Source of the DNA: a virus
Length of the DNA stretch: 31,059 bases
Strand: one strand, 5' to 3'
Virus record (IMG/VR): IMGVR_UViG_3300035157_000104
Coordinates: 1-31,059 of that record
Part shown: positions 2,080 to 9,528 of the stretch, piece by piece
Layout: each line of letters opens with the position of its first letter
Numbering within the stretch: the stretch's first letter is position 1
Translations under genes and position numbers: made by a program
The notes under the pieces: model-generated
Told to the model about the DNA's origin: nothing
The model's input: only the letters and a program-made list of their open reading frames with translations
The model's database searches: none

Positions 2080-3729
2080 TCAACGATACTCCCACATATA
2101 AGCACGGTCTCCGTATTCGTCTGTGAACCATCTTTCACCGTCGTCATCTACAAATGAGTTATCATCCATACCATCCTGAATAAAACCAAACGGAGCCATA
2201 TCTGCCTCTATTGCTTCTCGTTGTTCTTCATACATTTTTAAACGAATGTCATTGTCGTGACACTCTTTAAAGTATTCTTGTACACACAACCAAGAGAATA
2301 AAACTAAACACATAGCAAGGTCATCGTGGCATCCTTCTTCCGCTTGCCAAGATTGACCTTTTTGTATAAACGTAGTTAGTTCAGATATAATATCGTAGTC
2401 TTGTATTAATATTTTATCATCTTCTAATAATCCTTTAAGGTTAGAACAACCTAGTTTCTTAACTGCTGAACTCATCTTGACACCAAGTTGAACTTTACTT
2501 CCAGAGAAACCCTGTCCTACAACTTGCCCTGCTCTACCTCTCATTGCTGCCATTAGGAGGTTATCATATTCAAGATCATACTGAAGTATATCTGCTACCT
2601 GTGCACCAACATCATTTACTTCTATCAATACGTATGCGTGGTTATATGACTTAGCAACCCTATGAATAATATCAGGAAACAATAGGGGTTTAATTTGATT
2701 GTTTCTATATTTGGCAACTAATTTATATGGAACTGTGGATGTATCAAAAACCGTGAAAGCAGAATAATCACCGTCAATCCCTCTAGCAACATCAACAGTA
2801 ATAGTATATTGATGTTCTTTCTGAGGATCTTCATATACATCAAGTCCATTCTGAGTAGTGATGGGATCTTCATAAACCATTAACCTCAATTTGCTTGCAG
2901 ATATTAAAGTGTCAACAGATCCTAGGAACTCACATTCAAACTCAACTCTGAACTGTGCTTCTGATGTGTTAGCAATAGTTTGCTCTTTCCAATCAGCATC
3001 CCTACCAGGAACTTGTGACCAATGTACGTCAGTTGTTATATATTCATTCTTCTTTCTTTCAGCATCGTGCCATATCTTATAATACATATTCATCCCGTGA
3101 GGGGTAGATATGATAATAACTTTGGTATTTTTACCAGATGAGATAGTAGGATAAACAGAAGCAAAGAACTGTTCAGCAATATTGTTCGGAACGAACGCAA
3201 ACTCATCAAGGAAGATAATATTAAAGGACATCCCACGAACAGCAGAAGCAGAAGTAGATGAAGCAAGGAGACGAGATCCGTTCTCCAGTTCGACTGACCC
3301 CTTGTTCCAACCAATAATACCCTGCTGCATCCATTTAGGAAGGTTCTCATAAGATAACTGTAAGCGTCCCAACATTTCTCTAGCAGTCGGAGCTTTGTTT
3401 GCGAGGATTGCGACATTGACATTATCATTGAATATTACATACCATAAAAGATATGATGTAACAACAGTAGATTTACCAGACTGTCGAGGTAATTTTGCTA
3501 TGTTGAATCTATTATGATGAAACCTATCTACCATCTCCTCTTGGAAATCGTACATATTAAATGGGATGATACCTTCATCCAGAGACACAATCTTGATATA
3601 CTTACGTATAAAATAGATTGGATCTTTACTACACTTAACAAACTCCTCTACCTGTTTAGGTGTAAAGTGAGTTGGTACGTTTGCTTTTTTTAGATTCGGA
3701 TTACCAAGATATATCTGATTCTCTGCCAT
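2080..3729 (-). CDS. gp17: Terminase large subunit gp17 (packaging ATPase-nuclease)
   Basis: Motor that pumps DNA into the prohead and cuts the concatemer. The ATPase domain has Walker A RQSGKST at residues 82-88, Walker B IIFLDE at 171-176, and a coupling motif IISTPHG near 207-212. The C-terminal RNase H-like nuclease shows its acidic residues: D313 (TITVDVARG), E370/D373 (VLIEVND) and D469/D470 (GCHDDLAM). At 549 aa it is slightly shorter than T4 gp17 (610 aa) and looks complete. The ATG overlaps the stop of the nuclease gene upstream (TAATG at 3727-3731), indicating translational coupling. It pairs with gp16 at 8301-8768; the two are separated here by about 4.6 kb of accessory genes. Confidence 0.97.
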   Translation of the reverse strand: MAENQIYLGNPNLKKANVPTHFTPKQVEEFVKCSKDPIYFIRKYIKIVSLDEGIIPFNMYDFQEEMVDRFHHNRFNIAKLPRQSGKSTVVTSYLLWYVIFNDNVNVAILANKAPTAREMLGRLQLSYENLPKWMQQGIIGWNKGSVELENGSRLLASSTSASAVRGMSFNIIFLDEFAFVPNNIAEQFFASVYPTISSGKNTKVIIISTPHGMNMYYKIWHDAERKKNEYITTDVHWSQVPGRDADWKEQTIANTSEAQFRVEFECEFLGSVDTLISASKLRLMVYEDPITTQNGLDVYEDPQKEHQYTITVDVARGIDGDYSAFTVFDTSTVPYKLVAKYRNNQIKPLLFPDIIHRVAKSYNHAYVLIEVNDVGAQVADILQYDLEYDNLLMAAMRGRAGQVVGQGFSGSKVQLGVKMSSAVKKLGCSNLKGLLEDDKILIQDYDIISELTTFIQKGQSWQAEEGCHDDLAMCLVLFSWLCVQEYFKECHDNDIRLKMYEEQREAIEADMAPFGFIQDGMDDNSFVDDDGERWFTDEYGDRAYMWEYR

Positions 3730-4407: not shown

Positions 4408-4504
4408 TTGGAAAGAAATGATCGTATCTCAGTATATAGTATATCACAACTGAGACACAAACGAGAAGTATCCCTATCATCCAAACGATACTCCAAACGA
4501 CCAT
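4400..4504 (-). CDS. 34-aa single-pass membrane peptide between PTOX and lipoprotein
   Basis: The ATG at 4504 overlaps the PTOX stop (TAATG, 4502-4506), and the TAA at 4400-4402 overlaps the start of the lipoprotein gene by 8 bases. The product starts MVVWSIVWMIGILLVCVSVV and continues IYYILRYDHFFPNE, one strongly hydrophobic helix (about residues 3-25) followed by a short charged tail. There is no other explanation for the otherwise empty 96 bases between the flanking genes. The precise fit at both ends argues that it is real. Possible roles, all inferred, are a PTOX or photosystem accessory subunit, or a lysis-type peptide. I know of no family for it. Confidence 0.65.
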   Translation of the reverse strand: MVVWSIVWMIGILLVCVSVVIYYILRYDHFFPNE

Positions 4505-5004
4505 TAGATCAGAGACATTGCGTGATGTAATTCTTTAGCGTGTTTTAATTCATCCTCTGCTATCTCAGCAATCTTTGTATCTTCTGGATGATATGCAAGG
4601 TATTTCGTGTAAGTTTCATATGCGTGTTTCTCAATTTTCATATTGATGTCGTACGCATCTAAGGGACTAATGAAATAATAAGCAACCATAATCCAATAGT
4701 AAAGAAGAACCAAGTGTTTAGCGAAGAATCTATCGATCCAATATTTATTCCCCTCTCTAAGTTCCATCTCTTCCAAGTGTTCTGTTTCATTGAGTGCTTG
4801 ATAAAAGTGTTCCTTCATTAGATATATGTGTTCTTCACCTCGTAGACCAAGAGATTCACGAAAATGTAACACACTGATAAATGAAAAGTATGGTGCTCTA
4901 GCAATAACTTCTAGAACCCAAAACCTTTGAAAGTCTCTACCTCTGTAAAGAAAGTCTAAGATATAGATTGTAGTATCTAAGACGAAAGTATTGAATTGTT
5001 TCAT
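4504..5004 (-). CDS. ptox: Plastoquinol terminal oxidase (PTOX), alternative-oxidase family
   Basis: Non-haem diiron quinol oxidase that passes electrons from plastoquinol to oxygen, making water at the thylakoid membrane. All six AOX/PTOX iron ligands can be placed: E32 (WVLEVIARAPYF), E73 and H76 (NETEHL), E125 (EKHAYETY), and E152 and H155 (AEDELKHA). The segment FWVLEVIARAPYFSFISVLH is the PTOX hallmark, and helices near 95-115 suit monotopic membrane binding. At 166 aa it is compact, without the long N-terminal transit or arm regions of plant PTOX. PTOX is a known auxiliary metabolic gene of cyanophages, thought to relieve an over-reduced electron chain during infection. The start is set by the conserved N-terminus; no Shine-Dalgarno is seen, and a TATAAATA lies only 5 bases upstream. 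Its stop overlaps the 34-aa peptide gene. Confidence 0.93.
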   Translation of the reverse strand: MKQFNTFVLDTTIYILDFLYRGRDFQRFWVLEVIARAPYFSFISVLHFRESLGLRGEEHIYLMKEHFYQALNETEHLEEMELREGNKYWIDRFFAKHLVLLYYWIMVAYYFISPLDAYDINMKIEKHAYETYTKYLAYHPEDTKIAEIAEDELKHAKELHHAMSLI

Positions 5005-5009
5005 ATAGG

Positions 5010-5017
5010 TATTTATA
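5010..5017 (-). promoter_or_regulatory. Perfect late promoter TATAAATA abutting PTOX start
   Basis: TATAAATA on the minus strand, ending 5 bases before the PTOX ATG (5004) and inside the last codons of the upstream gene. A start site about 5-7 bases beyond this element would fall at or next to the ATG, implying a leaderless or near-leaderless mRNA. Confidence 0.6.
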
Positions 5018-5291
5018 CTGAAAAGATCTCTTTCATTATAAAAGATTTTGATAAGATTGGGTCTCCAAACAAATCTAATTGTATATTATCGGCATCTATG
5101 AGGAGGTCGTCTTCCGCTTCCTTTCTACAATGCTGCCAGTAATATGTGTTATCTTCTCTTCGATATAGGTAGCTAGTGTTGTGTGAATCGAGGGTGAACA
5201 TTGCGACACATTTTTGTTTGTGTTGCCAACAAGGATCGAGTGCTCTCTTTTCATATTCAGTCACGTTGTCTCCAATCGTCAGATTTGTCAT
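5013..5291 (-). CDS. Hypothetical small phage protein
   Basis: A 92-aa soluble protein with an N-terminal charged stretch (VTEYEKRALDPCWQHKQKC), an aromatic centre (SYLYRREDNTYYWQHCRKEA) and an acidic tail. Four Cys/His-containing spots are present but do not form a clear zinc motif. No family recognised. The start at 5291 gives a 35-base overlap with the 3' end of the 97-aa gene upstream. An internal Met at 5201 is an alternative, but residues 1-30 look compositionally like protein and read on naturally. Its last codons overlap the PTOX late promoter. Position next to PTOX suggests an accessory gene, not a structural one. Confidence 0.6.
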   Translation of the reverse strand: MTNLTIGDNVTEYEKRALDPCWQHKQKCVAMFTLDSHNTSYLYRREDNTYYWQHCRKEAEDDLLIDADNIQLDLFGDPILSKSFIMKEIFSV

Positions 5292-5550
5292 TCTTAAACC
5301 AATCTGCTACGTCATCTGCACCTTGGAATCCTCTTTTAGATTTACGTGGATCTCCTATATCTAAAAATTTTAAACACGATCCATCTGGGTCAGTTGCTAA
5401 TCTTCTCGCTTGACTCAACATACCCCTTGCACTTGTATTTGCTTTTCCAAGTTTTTGAGCCCAAATCATATCAGTCATAGTGACTTCTGAACCAGCAGCA
5501 ATATCTTTACAAATTGCTTCTAGTCTTAAACGGTATGCGGTAGATAACAT
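5257..5550 (-). CDS. Hypothetical small basic phage protein
   Basis: A 97-aa protein: an N-terminal helical part (YRLRLEAICKDIAAGSEV), a middle WAQKLGKANTSARGMLSQARR with an arginine/lysine-rich helix, and a C-terminal part (PRKSKRGFQGADDVADWF). The Met-rich, helical N-terminal half resembles a small helical DNA- or RNA-associated protein, but no helix-turn-helix can be named. The ATG at 5550 has no Shine-Dalgarno and directly follows a perfect 9-bp inverted repeat (5551-5573), which could hold the start region in a hairpin. It overlaps the next gene by 35 bases. Confidence 0.65.
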   Translation of the reverse strand: MLSTAYRLRLEAICKDIAAGSEVTMTDMIWAQKLGKANTSARGMLSQARRLATDPDGSCLKFLDIGDPRKSKRGFQGADDVADWFKNDKSDDWRQRD

Positions 5551-5573
5551 TTACTAATAGGTAATATTAGTAA
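5551..5573 (-). promoter_or_regulatory. Perfect 9-bp hairpin touching the start codon of the 97-aa gene
   Basis: Arms TTACTAATA (5551-5559) and TATTAGTAA (5565-5573) around a 5-base spacer, immediately before the ATG at 5550. The stem is all A/T except one G-C pair, so it is weak as RNA. As DNA it is a perfect operator-like palindrome. It also spans the stop codon of the 41-aa gene upstream (5567-5569). There is no T-run, so it is not a terminator. Confidence 0.45.
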
Positions 5574-5692
5574 TATCTATTTAATCTTTGGATACGTCTT
5601 TTTTTGCGTATTAAAATCCTGACATACCTTTTGATCTGCTCAAAGAAAGTAGGTTTTGGTTTTGGTGGTAATATCTCTTTAAATCTATTCAA
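5567..5692 (-). CDS. 41-aa very basic peptide, TTG start
   Basis: An open frame starts at TTG 5690-5692 with GAGG correctly placed 9 bases upstream, inside the end of the previous gene, whose stop it overlaps by 8 bases. The product begins MNRFKEILPPKPKPTFFEQI and ends in a lysine/arginine-rich amphipathic helix (KRYVRILIRKKRRIQRLNRYY), giving a high positive charge. It fills what would otherwise be a 134-base gap. The spacing, overlap and protein-like composition support it; the non-ATG start lowers certainty. Role unknown; nucleic-acid or membrane-surface binding is inferred from charge only. Confidence 0.45.
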   Translation of the reverse strand: MNRFKEILPPKPKPTFFEQIKRYVRILIRKKRRIQRLNRYY

Positions 5693-5858
5693 GCAAGTGA
5701 TCCTCGTTCAGAACTTCATTCATAGAAAAAGGATGTTCCCTTAGATAAGGTACATCCTCTCGTGCTTGTTTTACTGCTTGCCAAGAATCTTCTGCGTATT
5801 CGCAAATCTCGTGATGGATATGTTTAGAGTCGTCCCATCCGACTGTGTAGTGTGACAT
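5685..5858 (-). CDS. Hypothetical 57-aa acidic protein
   Basis: The product starts MSHYTVGWDDSKHIHHEICE and ends HPFSMNEVLNEDHLLE; it is acidic, rich in His and Trp, probably soluble, and unrecognised. The frame stays open to a GTG at 5933, which would add 25 residues (starting MCKPTTTQ). The ATG at 5858 is preferred because a late-promoter-like CTAAATAA lies at 5882-5889, within that extension, and the first 25 residues look like translated leader. It is the first gene of the leftward group, divergent from the plus-strand gene at 6022. Confidence 0.55.
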   Translation of the reverse strand: MSHYTVGWDDSKHIHHEICEYAEDSWQAVKQAREDVPYLREHPFSMNEVLNEDHLLE

Positions 5859-5881
5859 TACGATCTTTCGGGTGTCAGTAT

Positions 5882-5889
5882 TATTTAGG
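5882..5889 (-). promoter_or_regulatory. Possible degenerate late promoter (CTAAATAA)
   Basis: The minus strand reads CCTAAATAAT, 23 bases upstream of the ATG at 5858. It is weaker than the ATAAATA elements elsewhere in the window and is called mainly from its position. Confidence 0.3.
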
Positions 5890-5920
5890 TGTAAATACCC
5901 TGTTACTGACTGTGTAGTTG

Positions 5921-6000
5921 TTGGTTTACACACACATAAATAGTGGTAGAATTTGGGTTAACAAGATGCACTGAAAACGCATTTGTTATGTGTAAACCAA
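5921..6000. repeat. 12-bp inverted repeat flanking the divergent promoter region
   Basis: TTGGTTTACACA at 5921-5932 is repeated as its exact reverse complement TGTGTAAACCAA at 5989-6000. The arms bracket the plus-strand late promoter (5935-5942). They may be binding sites, or the remains of a duplication that gave both divergent transcripts a start reading (M)CKP. Confidence 0.6.
5935..5942 (+). promoter_or_regulatory. Late promoter CATAAATA for the only plus-strand gene
   Basis: CATAAATA on the plus strand, 79 bases upstream of the ATG at 6022. It is the same element as before gp18 and the 549-aa structural gene, here in the opposite orientation. Confidence 0.65.
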
Positions 6001-6032
6001 ACAAAAAGGAGGTTGATTTGTATGCAGCATAA
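5988..6032 (+). CDS. Possible 14-codon leader peptide (MCKPNKKEVDLYAA)
   Basis: ATG at 5988 opens a 14-codon frame that contains the Shine-Dalgarno of the 49-aa gene and ends with TAA at 6030-6032, overlapping that gene's start by 11 bases. The layout is that of a translationally coupled leader. It may simply be chance, as no own ribosome site is visible. Confidence 0.25.
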   Translation: MCKPNKKEVDLYAA

Positions 6033-6171
6033 CTTGGTATCATACAATCAATTAGCAGGATCTTATGAAGATCCACACGACTATAAGTTACACGAGTATT
6101 ACGAATGTCTGATTGAATGTAATGATAACCAACAGACGTGTAAAAGAATTTGCAAGGATGTGCTTATGTAA
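6022..6171 (+). CDS. 49-aa twin-CX3C protein, only plus-strand gene
   Basis: A strong AGGAGG (6007-6012) lies 9 bases before the ATG at 6022, fixing the start; an in-frame upstream TTG at 5983 is rejected. The product begins MQHNLVSYNQLAGSYEDPHD, then has YYECLIECNDNQQT and CKRICKDVLM. The four cysteines form two CX3C motifs separated by six residues, the pattern of a disulphide-stapled or metal-binding helical hairpin. There is no signal peptide. It is expressed against the rest of the window from its own CATAAATA element and ends at the shared terminator 6182-6205. Function unknown. Confidence 0.75.
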   Translation: MQHNLVSYNQLAGSYEDPHDYKLHEYYECLIECNDNQQTCKRICKDVLM

Positions 6172-6181
6172 AAGCAAAAAG

Positions 6182-6205
6182 AAAGACCCCGAAGGGTCTT
6201 TTTTT
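6182..6205. terminator. Bidirectional rho-independent terminator
   Basis: Arms AAAGACCC (6182-6189) and GGGTCTTT (6194-6201) with a 4-base loop. A T-run follows on the plus strand (6202-6205). On the minus strand the loop reads C(TTCG)G, the very stable UUCG tetraloop, followed by CTTTTT. It sits between the convergent genes 6022-6171 and 6204-6485. Confidence 0.9.
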
Positions 6206-6485
6206 ATGAGATAGGATATGCTTTGTCTGTCATATAATCTTCTGGTTTAGGTACTGGTGCATAGAACCCTTCAGGTCCTTCATAATTAGGACCAGTATCG
6301 TATCTAAGTGGTCTTTGTATAAGATCAACAGTTTCGTTAAACCATCTATCCATTGATTTTCCCATAGCACGATAAGAAGTACCAAGATAAATTTGCCCTG
6401 CTACAACAGATACAGTAGCAGTTCCCCAGAACATATAGTAAAATCTAGACTTTACTTGTGCTCTAACTTTATCACGTTTGTTCAT
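6204..6485 (-). CDS. Hypothetical 93-aa membrane protein
   Basis: Basic N-terminus (MNKRDKVRAQVKSRFYY) followed by one predicted membrane helix at about residues 17-37 (MFWGTATVSVVAGQIYLG), then a soluble Pro/Tyr-rich tail (NYEGPEGFYAPVPKPEDYM). The positive N-terminus suggests the tail faces out of the cytoplasm. The ATG overlaps the stop of the 99-aa membrane gene (TAATG, 6483-6487), so the two are probably co-translated. No family recognised. It is the last gene before the bidirectional terminator. Confidence 0.75.
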   Translation of the reverse strand: MNKRDKVRAQVKSRFYYMFWGTATVSVVAGQIYLGTSYRAMGKSMDRWFNETVDLIQRPLRYDTGPNYEGPEGFYAPVPKPEDYMTDKAYPIS

Positions 6486-6784
6486 TACCGATTTAATATA
6501 TTCTTTAAGGGTAGCATCTCTACCTTAACTTTGTCAACTATTTGATCTATAATATTAATATCAATTCCCATAAACGGTGGAATAATTCCCATCATCCTTA
6601 GTAAACCGTCTACAAATAATGCTAATGCTGTAAAACCTAGAATCATACTAATTACAGTCGCATCTCTATTGTGCTTTGCCATAGACGCTTCATCTATAGC
6701 ACGAGCTTCAGCAACTGCGTCGCTGATCATTTTGTCAACTTCGTCTTTTGTATAGCAAAGTGACTTGATACGATCATCTGTCAT
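6485..6784 (-). CDS. Hypothetical 99-aa membrane protein
   Basis: An N-terminal soluble helical part (KDEVDKMISDAVAEARAIDE), one membrane helix at about residues 44-64 (VISMILGFTALALFVDGLL), and a C-terminal amphipathic part (IIDQIVDKVKVEMLPLKNIL). The layout resembles small phage membrane-anchored coiled-coil proteins, and a holin-like or spanin-like role cannot be excluded, but no signature is present. The start at 6784 lies 3 bases after the stop of the 48-aa gene. The stop overlaps the next start. Confidence 0.7.
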   Translation of the reverse strand: MTDDRIKSLCYTKDEVDKMISDAVAEARAIDEASMAKHNRDATVISMILGFTALALFVDGLLRMMGIIPPFMGIDINIIDQIVDKVKVEMLPLKNILNR

Positions 6785-6787
6785 TGA

Positions 6788-6934
6788 CTACAGAAGAATA
6801 GCACCAATAATAAATCCTTTAGCAAATGATATGCAAAGCATTTTATAGTCGGATAACTCAAATTTCTTTTGAAACTTTCCAATAAGTTTCTTATCCCACT
6901 CGACAAACTTGTCGAAATATTTTTTAATTACCAT
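6788..6934 (-). CDS. 48-aa tail-anchored membrane peptide
   Basis: The ATG at 6934 overlaps the end of the 39-aa gene by 11 bases and the TAG lies at 6788-6790. The product begins MVIKKYFDKFVEWDKKLIGK, a basic amphipathic helix, and ends in a hydrophobic segment (MLCISFAKGFIIGAILL) that reaches the last residue, as in tail-anchored proteins. It accounts for the space between two neighbours with the spacing typical of this cluster. Unrecognised; together with the 99- and 93-aa proteins it makes three consecutive small membrane proteins. Confidence 0.7.
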   Translation of the reverse strand: MVIKKYFDKFVEWDKKLIGKFQKKFELSDYKMLCISFAKGFIIGAILL

Positions 6935-7043
6935 TATGACCTGGTTTTTGTGGACAGTTTTTTTCGTGTTTATCTAACCACCTCTGACAATTCCAATGAT
7001 TTTTTGGAGGTGTGATTCCACAGTATTTACACTTAAGTTCCAT
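6924..7043 (-). CDS. 39-aa C2HC zinc-finger-like protein
   Basis: Starting at the ATG 7041-7043 the product has C5-X2-C8, then H26-X3-C30, a CCHC-type zinc-knuckle pattern (MELKCKYCGITPP, then LDKHEKNCPQ). The 11-base overlap with the gene before it and 11-base overlap with the gene after it match the packing of the cluster. A longer form from 7139 is open but would overlap the upstream gene by over 100 bases and is not favoured. Metal binding is inferred from residues only; role unknown. Confidence 0.6.
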   Translation of the reverse strand: MELKCKYCGITPPKNHWNCQRWLDKHEKNCPQKPGHNGN

Positions 7044-7257
7044 TGTACTTGCGATTAAAGTCTTTAAATGATGACTGAAGGGATTTAGGCTCAGGTTCTT
7101 TTCCATACTTTTGAACCTTCCATTCATTGTGCATAGCACCTAGGATCCAAGCTTGGGACAGTCCTTTAGGACCATTTGTCAATAGTTCTTTTTGAAATGC
7201 TGACAACCTTGGTTTAGAAGCAAGATACTCTTGCCTCCAACTATGATCAGTTTCCAT
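7033..7257 (-). CDS. Hypothetical 74-aa protein
   Basis: Reads METDHSWRQEYLASKPRLSA and ends SSFKDFNRKYNGT; a basic, helical, soluble protein with no recognised domain. The start at 7257 gives an 11-base overlap with the DUF3293-like gene. An ATG at 7293 would add 12 residues that mirror the 3' end of that gene and is less likely. It belongs to the small-gene cluster transcribed from the late promoter at 8302. Confidence 0.65.
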   Translation of the reverse strand: METDHSWRQEYLASKPRLSAFQKELLTNGPKGLSQAWILGAMHNEWKVQKYGKEPEPKSLQSSFKDFNRKYNGT

Positions 7258-7738
7258 ATGAGTAAGATTTGTTTTTAACTTTTGTTTCCCCATAAGGGTT
7301 GGGACGATTAGGTTTTACTTGACCTAACTTCATACCCTTAGTTCCTGCTCTACGAGCAGTTGGATTTAGTATAGCATCTTTTTTACCTTTTTTGGTAATT
7401 ATGGAATCCTGATTGTATTCCTTACCAAGACGCTTCATCTGTTTCTTAAAAGTTCTGAACTTTTTCTTGGGTGCATTAACTACAATAGATGGTTCTCTTA
7501 CAGTCTTTGTTTCCCCTGTCTTCTCGTCTTTCTCTGCATATTTTCCTTCTACCTTTTTGTAACCATATCCTAAACTACGAACTTTTTTACCTAGTTCTTT
7601 ATTCTTTGCTTTGTTTTCAGCACTAGATACGTTACCTCTGTTTGCTGTTAACTGTGCAGTATTACGCTGCATAGAGTTTCTAACAGCACGAGATAAACCA
7701 CCTTCAGCAATGAATTGTTTAAAAGATAGAGTTGACAT
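7247..7738 (-). CDS. Basic DUF3293-like protein with structural-type N-terminus
   Basis: A 163-aa lysine-rich protein. The N-terminal LSFKQFIAEGG resembles the short F-x2-F-x-x-E leader seen at the start of many T4-like virion proteins. The core, TANRGNVSSAENKAKNKELG, then GYGYKKVEGKY, REPSIVVNA and KEYNQDSII, matches in order the pattern I associate with DUF3293 (N-x3-R/K-N-x2-L, G-x-G, E-x-S, QDSI). The assignment is from memory of the pattern, not from a search. The ATG overlaps the stop of the 179-aa gene (TAATG). Role unknown; possibly virion-associated, given the location next to the structural genes. Confidence 0.6.
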   Translation of the reverse strand: MSTLSFKQFIAEGGLSRAVRNSMQRNTAQLTANRGNVSSAENKAKNKELGKKVRSLGYGYKKVEGKYAEKDEKTGETKTVREPSIVVNAPKKKFRTFKKQMKRLGKEYNQDSIITKKGKKDAILNPTARRAGTKGMKLGQVKPNRPNPYGETKVKNKSYSYGN

Positions 7739-8277
7739 TAGCCACCTACAATTTGAACTTGTTCTAATATAACTGCGTTACTACCAGCAACACATTTAAC
7801 TGCACGTTTTACTAATGGAATGTTTCCAGCAGTTGCATCAGCAGCACTGAGAGCATAGTCTCCACTTGCAGCAGATGAATCATAATCTGTTGTAATAGTA
7901 GAAGCAGTGATTGCTGTTACCTTCTTACCACCTGATGCTGCTGATTCAAAGTCAGATGTAAATCCATCTGTGTCACCACCATCAACTGTTTCTATATAAT
8001 CTCCAACACTAAAAGTATGTCTACCACCACCTGAGAATCCTTCAGCAGTGATTACCATTGTAGCAGCGTCTGTCGCAGCAGCGATCTTAGCGTTCTTTGC
8101 TTTACCTACTGACAGTAAAACCGCTTCTCCAGCAGCAAGAGTAATCGCAGGACCTTCGTCAAATTTTATTGTGGATGCTGATGCAGCGTACGCACGTACG
8201 ACACCAGATTTGACCACTATGTATGCAGTTCCTGAACCACTCACTGTCGTTGTATCTAATACATTTAAAACTGACAT
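7738..8277 (-). CDS. Probable virion structural protein, Ala/Gly/Ser/Thr-rich
   Basis: A 179-aa protein with low-complexity beta-type composition (TTVSGSGTAYIVVKSGVVRA, GKAKNAKIAAATDAATMVIT, SAASGGKKVTAITASTITTD) and no Cys except one near the C-terminus. The first 80 residues look like a compact beta sandwich. The second half contains a SVGDYIETV...KKVTAITAST..I pattern like other beta modules in this phage. It has its own GATAAATA late promoter at 8302-8309 and a good purine-rich ribosome site (AGGAA 8282-8286), so it is probably abundant, for instance a head decoration or tail surface protein. No family recognised. Confidence 0.65.
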   Translation of the reverse strand: MSVLNVLDTTTVSGSGTAYIVVKSGVVRAYAASASTIKFDEGPAITLAAGEAVLLSVGKAKNAKIAAATDAATMVITAEGFSGGGRHTFSVGDYIETVDGGDTDGFTSDFESAASGGKKVTAITASTITTDYDSSAASGDYALSAADATAGNIPLVKRAVKCVAGSNAVILEQVQIVGG

Positions 8278-8300: not shown

Positions 8301-8768
8301 TTATTTATCCTTTTGTTTCTTCAAAAATTTAGCGAGTTCAGCAGTAGAACCAACAAACATAGTATTGTTTGTTACGTTACCTGGTAAGTTTTTAGCACTA
8401 CCACCACCTTGAACTTCTTCTAATTTCTTTTGAAGATCCATAAGTTTGTCAGCAGTATCACCGACATTCTTAATTAGATTACCAGCTACTTCATATGCAC
8501 GTGGTGAATCTGATTGTTGTGCAACATCTAATATTCCATCTACTGCCTCTTGTCCTTTTTCAATCAAAGAATAAAACTGACCACGAGAATACTCATAATC
8601 TTTCAAGATCTGTTTTTGGATAGGAGTAGACTCAACAGGTTCTGCTAAATCGGAACTCTTGTCCTTAGTAATGTCACTAACAAGAGAAGTCTCAACCTCT
8701 AGTGCATCTTCGATGCCACCATAGATCTTACTCGTCTTGTCCTGTGGTTGGGTTTCTTGATTTTCCAT
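8301..8768 (-). CDS. gp16: Terminase small subunit gp16
   Basis: Recognises viral DNA and regulates gp17 cutting and ATPase during packaging; it works as an oligomeric ring. The 155-aa product is close to T4 gp16 (164 aa). The core DYEYSRGQFYSLIEKGQEAV, then SPRAYEVAGNLIKNV and TADKLMDLQKKLEEV, is the conserved helical centre of cyanophage gp16; the ends are acidic and disordered. The start is placed at Met 8768 (MENQETQPQDK), overlapping gp15 by 41 bases. A Met at 8810 would read a further 14 residues that are only the shadow of gp15. It lies directly after gp13-gp14-gp15 as in T4. Confidence 0.9.
   Translation of the reverse strand: MENQETQPQDKTSKIYGGIEDALEVETSLVSDITKDKSSDLAEPVESTPIQKQILKDYEYSRGQFYSLIEKGQEAVDGILDVAQQSDSPRAYEVAGNLIKNVGDTADKLMDLQKKLEEVQGGGSAKNLPGNVTNNTMFVGSTAELAKFLKKQKDK
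8302..8309 (-). promoter_or_regulatory. Late promoter GATAAATA overlapping the gp16 stop codon
   Basis: The minus strand reads GATAAATA; the gp16 reading frame ends GAT AAA TAA over the same bases. The ATG of the next gene is 24 bases downstream, with AGGAA between. Confidence 0.75.
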
Positions 8769-9528
8769 CAGTAAATTCAGAATATATTTCGTTGAAACCG
8801 AAGTTATCATCTGCGTCAGCAGTGAATGGATCGGGTTGAACTTGATAACGAACCTCTCTAGGTGCTGTTGTATCTACCGCCATAGCAGTATCAACAATAG
8901 CAGTCTTGATAATTTTATCGGTAACGTCAGAGACAGGACCGTAGAGATAAGTCTTAGCAGTAAATGACAACGTGTAGATTAAAGTTCTACGTGTTGTAAA
9001 ATCTCCCTCATAGTCATCATCATAATTAACAGAGTTAAGTGTTATTGGGAAATCTTTTTTCTCACCAATAGCATCGACCAAGTTAATAGTTATATTAAAC
9101 ATTGGTTGAAATACTGGAAGAATTTGTTCTAAGATTTGTAATCCATCATCTTGATTCTTAGAAAGAATAGCAAGTTCAAAATCCACATTATATGGAACTG
9201 GCATAAAAGACTTTTTAGTCTTACCACCATCATTGTTATCAACGTGTCTTATCACCTGAGTTGGTGATACCTTTCTAGTAGAATCATATGAAAATCCAGA
9301 TATCTCAAAAGATATTCTGGGTAAACTGATTTGAGTTGATCTGTCAGCAGTAGTTCCAGCTTGTGCTAAACGTGCTAGGAATTTATCTTTAGGACCATAT
9401 GCCAAAGGTACTTTCATAACCTCTGTCTTAGATCCACTCACACGTCTAATTTCGATATTGTTAAACAAAGTACCGAAACCAATAACCGTCTTACGAAATA
9501 TTTCGTTATATGTATATGTTCCTAACAT
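8728..9528 (-). CDS. gp15: Tail completion / sheath stabiliser gp15
   Basis: Forms the terminator ring that caps the tail tube and sheath and joins the tail to the neck. At 266 aa it is near T4 gp15 (272 aa). The N-terminus LGTYTYNEIFRKTVIGFGTL followed by FNNIEI, and PVPYNVDFELAILSKNQDDG with QILPVFQP, are typical of the family. A strong GGAGG (9538-9542) sits 9 bases upstream and the ATG overlaps the gp14 stop (TAATG). The C-terminal FNEIYSEFTDGKSRN overlaps the gp16 start. Confidence 0.92.
   Translation of the reverse strand: MLGTYTYNEIFRKTVIGFGTLFNNIEIRRVSGSKTEVMKVPLAYGPKDKFLARLAQAGTTADRSTQISLPRISFEISGFSYDSTRKVSPTQVIRHVDNNDGGKTKKSFMPVPYNVDFELAILSKNQDDGLQILEQILPVFQPMFNITINLVDAIGEKKDFPITLNSVNYDDDYEGDFTTRRTLIYTLSFTAKTYLYGPVSDVTDKIIKTAIVDTAMAVDTTAPREVRYQVQPDPFTADADDNFGFNEIYSEFTDGKSRNPTTGQDE

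Follow-up and report, generated by a model that had tools for sequence, protein, structure and literature searches.

The question raised by this locus is why a stretch of viral DNA that is read almost entirely from the minus strand carries one very short gene on the plus strand, equipped with expression signals. Within the 31,059 nt analysed (hereafter the window) minus-strand ORFs of at least 55 aa cover 30,294 bases, and besides the frame at 6022-6171 the only plus-strand ORFs covered for less than 60% are two that start with TTG and have 40 and 46 aa. An earlier interpretation made from the letters alone (the sequence-only reading) had called it the sole gene against the flow in 31 kb, and by ORF coverage it is indeed the only credible plus-strand gene. 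According to PHROG matches, it is flanked on the minus strand by the genes for the two terminase subunits, the small one (gp16, 8304-8810) on one side and the large one (gp17, 2080-3729) on the other, and a gene for a plastoquinol terminal oxidase lies at 4504-5004 on the same minus strand; the plus-strand gene is inverted within this gp16-gp17 interval, which has been described as a hot spot (PMC3037559). The strong ribosome site claimed earlier is present as well, the Shine-Dalgarno (SD) sequence AAGGAGGT lying ahead of 6022. The answer that we favour from sequence comparison, with a probability of about 0.5, is that the gene belongs to a portable, self-contained expression cassette of T4-like marine cyanophages, which would encode a cysteine-tipped hairpin and control ribosome loading in its leader. 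The features concerned are given in Table 1.

Table 1. Features in and around the plus-strand gene (positions in the window).
Feature	Position	Strand	Remarks
Upstream box	5886-5904	+	TAGGTGTAAATACCCTGTT (consensus of relatives TAGGCATAAATTTTTGTTA); 61 nt before the -10-like hexamer
Inverted repeat, left arm	5921-5932		Perfect 12 bp; judged incidental
Composite promoter	5925-5952	+	TTTACA 5925-5930 (-35-like), CATAAATA 5935-5942, TAGAAT 5947-5952 (-10-like)
Candidate two-codon minigene ATG-CAC-TGA	5966-5974	+	Weak SD GGG at 5955-5957; 56 nt before main ATG
RTYATG motif GTTATG	5985-5990	+	In leader; RTYATG in 71 of 122 leaders
Inverted repeat, right arm	5989-6000		Perfect 12 bp; judged incidental
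SD of main gene	6006-6013	+	AAGGAGGT; P(unpaired) 0.93 in leader fold
Main ORF	6022-6171	+	49 aa, MQHNLVSYNQLAGSYEDPHDYKLHEYYECLIECNDNQQTCKRICKDVLM; phrog_665 / T4-GC 363; CX3C-x6-CX3C
Intrinsic terminator	6182-6206		AAAGACCC-CGAA-GGGTCTTT and T run; between convergent genes

The protein matches the phrog_665 profile with an E-value of 9.6e-17 (profile positions 2-56 of 56). This family ('T4-LIKE GC 363') is annotated as hypothetical, function unknown, and the window gene agrees with it in sequence, length and four cysteines; the window copy differs in its inverted position between gp16 and gp17. Searches of Pfam and NCBIfam with the protein returned sub-threshold matches only. Using tblastn (E up to 1) we found relatives in 356 of 50,697 phage records, all of them named Synechococcus, Prochlorococcus, cyanophage or marine virus. 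For comparison we used gp23 of P-RSM4, for which 470 of 497 matching records (tblastn, E up to 1e-100) fall in those same name groups; phrog_665 records thus amount to about three quarters of the gp23 records, as a ratio of two lists that were not matched record by record. S-SM1 encodes GC 363, no relative was found in MED4-213, and the gene is uncalled in several records (P-SSM2, P-SSM3, P-RSM3, ACG-2014a, b and i, and S-CAM8).

For comparative analysis we combined the window, 17 phage records and three IMG/VR scans (the best 80 of 228, best 80 of 287 and best 80 of 171 confirmed stretches) into a set of 258 loci with 166 distinct proteins; loci L098-L105 were excluded, and the frames of L261-L263 and L242 were ended at the first stop. 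The CX3C-x6-CX3C pattern noted by the sequence-only reading is present in the window protein, and among the matches listed 165 of the 166 distinct proteins keep the four cysteines with a spacer of six (103 proteins), seven (61) or nine residues (one). Lack of conservation of the cysteines had been named as grounds for rejecting the pattern, and this is not what the homologues show. The single listed homologue without it (L254:3001-3180) has Tyr in place of C2 and lacks C3, so that two cysteines remain. Further near-invariant elements, derived here and not from the PHROG entry, are an HN(L/I)xSxNQL N terminus, Y(Y/F), LIE and CK; the window protein carries both the cysteine pattern and the N-terminal motif. 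The median pairwise dN/dS is 0.11 (558 same-length pairs, aligned without gaps, with 0.15 < dS < 1.2), and two pairs involving the window with values above 1.7 are probably misaligned. By this measure the gene at 6022-6171 is under purifying selection.

The earlier suggestion of a helical hairpin agrees with AlphaFold2 models of the window protein (of moderate quality, mean pLDDT 77, pTM 0.50, helices 18-32 and 37-48) and of a 57-aa relative (L145; pLDDT 88, helices 7-39 and 45-56). In the window model the last 30 residues have a pLDDT of about 90 and the first 20 residues of 55-60; C29 and C33 lie where helix 1 ends (C33 beyond it by one residue) and C40 and C44 within helix 2. The protein is therefore predicted to consist of the N-terminal motif followed by a helical hairpin with the four cysteines at its tip, a layout that is compatible with two disulphides (C1-C4 and C2-C3) or with a metal site. 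The best match in the PDB by sequence was Cox6b (E 1.2), and by fold neither the PDB nor BFVD yielded a match at E 0.001 or better; the best BFVD entries were a 54-residue protein (45% identity, E 4.9e-3) and a metaG-MbCM1 protein (E 0.59). With VIA-align 2, five of 23 chains reached Z of at least 2, the top one being EF-Ts (Z 3.7, but rmsd 7.7), and Luffin P1 was a weak structural match (Z 2.2, rmsd 2.9 over 32 residues). Luffin P1 belongs, with VhTI and EcAMP1, to the plant alpha-hairpinins, in which CX3C-xn-CX3C is carried by two antiparallel helices (PMC7191063); the predicted phage hairpin likewise puts one CX3C motif on each helix. The differences are considerable: 11-13 residues separate the motifs in alpha-hairpinins, against 6-7 (once 9) here, and the phage product has a conserved N-terminal motif and no sequence relation to them was found.

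The gene sits at many differing genome positions while the same cassette parts recur, as appears from comparison of the loci. Among the 258 listed loci, which are redundant, the gene is found at most 1.2 kb downstream of gp23 in 57, before gp3 in 11, near thyX/phoH in 57, near psbA/psbD/talC in 48, next to a window-type neighbour in 18 (eight of those in the window's own arrangement), near gp32 and near pstS in one each, and elsewhere in 65. P-SSM3, which is closely related over the PTOX region, has no copy at that place; its copy lies at 120,902, unannotated, among a run of small genes, with box and promoter alike and an upstream frame of nine codons.

Which parts travel with the gene is best seen upstream of it. 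A late promoter of its own had been proposed; the gene does appear to have its own promoter, and what changes is its type, which looks composite (late-type TAAATA plus a -10-like TAGAAT). In the window CATAAATA resembles the late-type TATAAATA-type box (gp55 promoter) and is followed 4 nt on by TAGAAT, and a sigma70-like TTTACA-16-TAGAAT arrangement (10 of 12 matches) overlaps the late-type box. Promoter-like sites as such are not in excess in the region 4500-8000 (10, against 12.6 in shuffles). A TAGAAT-like hexamer at least 55 nt before the gene occurs in 131 of the 156 distinct-protein leaders, and 119 of these 131 long leaders have a TAAATA-like box within 14 nt upstream of it (a loose pattern, counted without shuffle control), with variants such as TAGATA, TAAGTA, TATATA and TACATA. 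The GC 363 genes of Syn33 and of P-RSM4 both have the composite upstream, but only 1 of 125 other genes there does; gp18, 19, 20, 22 and 23 of these phages have plain TAAATA boxes (judged by eye). The excess of -35 elements is modest: 5/6 matches to TTGACA occur in 18 of 118 upstream segments (4.1 expected) and 4/6 matches in 13 (18.3 expected).

A further element lies at a fixed distance from the promoter. Of 110 non-redundant upstream regions, 35 have TAGGCAT (at most one mismatch) 58-62 nt before a TAGAAT-like hexamer, against a shuffle expectation of 0.54 (max 3), and the regions that bear it have differing neighbour genes. In the window the box reads TAGGTGT, 61 nt ahead of the hexamer, and with two mismatches it falls below the one-mismatch criterion. 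Searched across 17 whole genomes, the 19-base version of the box (at most three mismatches) matched four times, twice at the phrog_665 gene. In P-SSM2 a second copy of the TAGGCAT box at 66,454 (L102:1501) precedes a stretch with CTTTTGTTATTC (220 nt looked at).

Downstream, the sequence-only reading had assigned the gene a dedicated terminator. A terminator is present, but it is shared: the minus-strand neighbour ends at 6204, convergent with the phrog_665 gene, and a terminator between convergent genes is not dedicated to either. For the stem at 6182-6201 the terminator scans list the minus strand only, and the plus-strand T run was seen by eye. Among homologous loci, 95 of 109 have a terminator within 130 nt downstream (1.3 in ten shuffles).

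The most specific part of the unit concerns the leader. A possible 14-codon leader frame had been pointed out; its ATG does occur at 5988, but relatives do not keep the frame: RTYATG is present at this place in 34 of 64 clustered leaders, and the length of the frame there ranges from 1 to 61 codons. Compared across relatives, the conserved leader ORF is instead ATG-CAC-TGA, which, judging from the promoter, would share the transcript of the main gene. In 120 of 131 leaders a start codon (ATG or GTG) with a loosely defined SD of three bases lies 8-19 nt beyond the hexamer. The 122 long leaders with such an SD-ATG (9 of the 131 lack one and were left outside) were clustered at 80% identity into 67, of which L021, L081 and L232 were dropped, two being mis-assigned short-leader copies. 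In 40 of the remaining 64 the frame has 1-2 codons, against 9.7 expected when the downstream sequence is shuffled (sd 2.8, max 19; these shuffles ignore relatedness, which the clustering only lessens). Similar tendencies are observed with a strict SD (at least four bases): 126 of 156 leaders have a start 26-80 nt upstream (shuffles 67, max 87), and in 73 there is a start whose frame has at most two codons (shuffles 14.7, max 26). At other genes of Syn33 and P-RSM4 the counts are 53 and 2 of 125, so that a strict SD-ATG by itself at this distance is common. The window's own minigene SD (GGG) fails the strict test, as does that of P-RSM4, and in Syn33 a strong SD opens a 23-codon frame instead. 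With one leader taken per distinct protein (155), start, 0-1 codons and stop are found in 85, of which the hexamer-anchored scan gave 70 and a looser pattern the other 15; 52 have a longer upstream frame, which often reaches into the gene, and in 18 these scans find no second start.

Minigene and main ATG are separated by 42-69 nt (median 52), and by 44-64 nt in 60 of the 64 clustered leaders. The second codons vary (CAC, CTC, TTC, ATC, CGT, ACC, AAA, AAT, AAG, GTC and TCC among others), so the peptide itself is not what is conserved, and a conserved leader peptide is ruled out. Leader models built on sequence match the phrog_665 gene at E < 0.001 in 11 of 18 genomes (R1 in five, R2 in six) and not at this level in the other 7; one of six R1 matches lies elsewhere (S-SSM6a, 127,927). 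Some matched records had contributed to the models; S-SM1, S-RIM2 and ACG-2014a had not, yet match at the gene. In S-SM1 a CDS (SSM1_135, T4-GC 1447) is annotated across the leader (L268:14809-14904) and overlaps the GC 363 start. A short-leader class, recognized by eye (L014-L024, L042, L049-L052, L063, L065), has a CTAGGCATTTCTTTCGGCTAAG box and a CTAAATA or TATAAT promoter; the gene's own SD-ATG stands at the place of the minigene, and upstream of the box the sequences differ.

Structural signals in the leader were also considered. The inverted repeat, thought earlier to be part of the promoter, is a perfect 12-bp repeat, but a functional role is not supported: it is kept in L006 and L007 and not in L008-L010, where the arms diverge without compensation, and it was rejected as operator or hairpin on these grounds. 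The CKP reading shared by both strands is a by-product of the repeat. A conserved hairpin AACAAG/CTTGTT, to which the window clade had pointed, was rejected, given that RNAalifold finds no base pair in either 25-sequence leader alignment, and Rfam has nothing near gathering scores for the leader (best E 0.25). The idea that a C-rich stretch sequesters the main SD until a ribosome on the minigene opens it is not supported by folding. The mean P(unpaired) of the main SD is 0.291 in the GAGGTG group (0.252 with shuffled spacers) and 0.511 and 0.283 in the other SD groups (0.398 and 0.305); masking the minigene raises it to 0.467 in the GAGGTG group, an opening that lacks a shuffled control.

How the leader would act is suggested by known minigenes. 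The lambda bar minigenes are phage-coded two-codon ORFs with an SD, toxic through peptidyl-tRNA drop-off; to our knowledge they are not a conserved gene leader. A closer likeness is to EHEC ler (LEE1) and enterococcal axe-txe. There the leader carries an SD and an ORF of two codons that affect the next gene, ler or the toxin gene txe, in cis; protection of the mRNA may be the means, and distance is a key factor (PMC8708949). No particular last amino acid is preferred there (PMC8708949), and the cyanophage second codons vary too. In axe-txe, minigene stop and start are 15 nt apart (PMC8708949), whereas the cyanophage candidate lies about 52 nt before the main ATG; unlike both systems, it occurs in phages and recurs across phage genera and genome positions. 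A ribosome would start and soon stop on the minigene and would then occupy the 5' end of the mRNA, roughly a ribosome's length upstream of the main start; an occupied 5' end would stabilise or meter the message rather than block it. A ribosome footprint reaches some 20 nt to the 5' side of the start codon and 13 nt to the 3' side (PMC8708949), and 42-69 nt leaves space for both ribosomes side by side, for which reason protection or loading is favoured over blockage. In MED4 infection a cyanophage transcription factor raises the host RNase E transcript (PMC9692554), and under such conditions 5' protection might well be rewarded.

Several other explanations of the leader and the protein have to be weighed against a loading cassette. 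The leader could be a binding site through which RegA tunes translation of the gene: RTYATG resembles the T4 RegA SELEX consensus aaAAUUGUUAUGUAA, which was selected as RNA without structure (PMC3014915), the window has UUUGUUAUGUGUAA, the motif is far in excess of the shuffles (5.2 expected, max 12), the leader alignments show no consensus structure, and regA is present in Syn33 and P-RSM4. The UUGUUAUG-like motif in an unstructured leader is shared with T4 RegA operators (PMC3014915), but T4 targets have it over the AUG, whereas the cyanophage element mostly starts 27-38 nt upstream of the main AUG and does not cover the start codon. Moreover RTYAT without the final G is common too (100 of 122 leaders, 26.7 expected), the sequence ahead of RTYATG is U-rich and not A-rich, and RB69 RegA selected a different RNA (PMC3014915), all of which makes RegA a very doubtful candidate. 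Somewhat less doubtful, though still unlikely, is a passive origin of the upstream frame as a relic: the promoter would have brought an SD-ATG, and the long class would have inserted a spacer and a new RBS, so that a start codon stays behind with whatever short frame happens to come after it. The short-leader class, where the gene itself has the first ATG, would fit this, as would the longer frames in a third of the leaders (52 of 155) and the weak SD in the window and P-RSM4; it leaves unaccounted for the excess of frames that stop at codon 2 or 3 while their second codons change, the narrow distance to the main ATG and the near absence of strict-SD minigenes at other genes.

As to the protein, a minor virion or head-assembly role has been considered, in which a late gene after gp23 encodes cysteines that form disulphides outside the cell. 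The copies downstream of gp23 and before gp3, the late-type TAAATA and the predicted cysteine hairpin speak for it; the many listed copies near psbA/psbD/talC, thyX/phoH or other genes speak against it. The Syn33 and P-RSM4 records attach the remark 'similar to Synechococcus phage S-SM1 protein', which we infer to mark proteins detected in the S-SM1 virion, to gp13, 14, 15, 18, 19, 20, 21, 23 and 3, but not to GC 363 or to gp16, gp17, gp22 and gp55. Small proteins readily escape mass spectrometry. On balance we give a virion role a small chance, and a dose-controlled host-takeover or regulatory factor, which would work via protein contacts, seems the most likely function, given that an ordered unit recurring after relocation suggests that dose matters.

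Summarizing the parts of the favoured cassette, composite promoter and terminator recur in most copies and the fixed-distance box in about a third; most copies also have a second start some 52 nt ahead of the gene, and the majority of clustered leaders a minigene of 1-2 codons. It might be argued further that three layers (a dedicated activator box, a composite early/late promoter whose two start points would include or exclude the minigene SD, and a two-codon minigene gate) move as a block and meter a potent host-takeover protein that works as a cysteine switch and occurs widely in T4-like marine cyanophages; this extended version appears distinctly improbable to us.

In the open-licence papers searched, phrog_665 and T4-GC 363 are not named (phrog_6651 being the only PHROG that turned up) and a minigene in a cyanophage leader is not described. 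As far as this search reached, the gene is already known as a hypothetical family, and the recurring minigene leader and the fixed-distance box are undescribed. The family has relatives in hundreds of phage records, yet it has no assigned function and in several records is unannotated. If the leader acts as proposed, it would be a broadly recurring phage minigene leader and a natural series of start-(codon)-stop frames with varied codons and narrow spacing, in which the effect of a minimal ORF is directly testable; the protein, as a compact cysteine hairpin, would offer a handle on the cyanophage takeover of very abundant photosynthetic cells.

Finally, a tiny frame ending in His-Pro-Pro-stop or Arg-Pro-Pro-stop recurs downstream of the gene, as seen by eye (for example MLIHSHPP*, MTIHTHPP* and MFYLHPP*; L002, L041, L044, L045, L047, L060, L066-L068, L073, L079, L080 and L084). 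Its ending suggests a ribosome-arrest mini-ORF.
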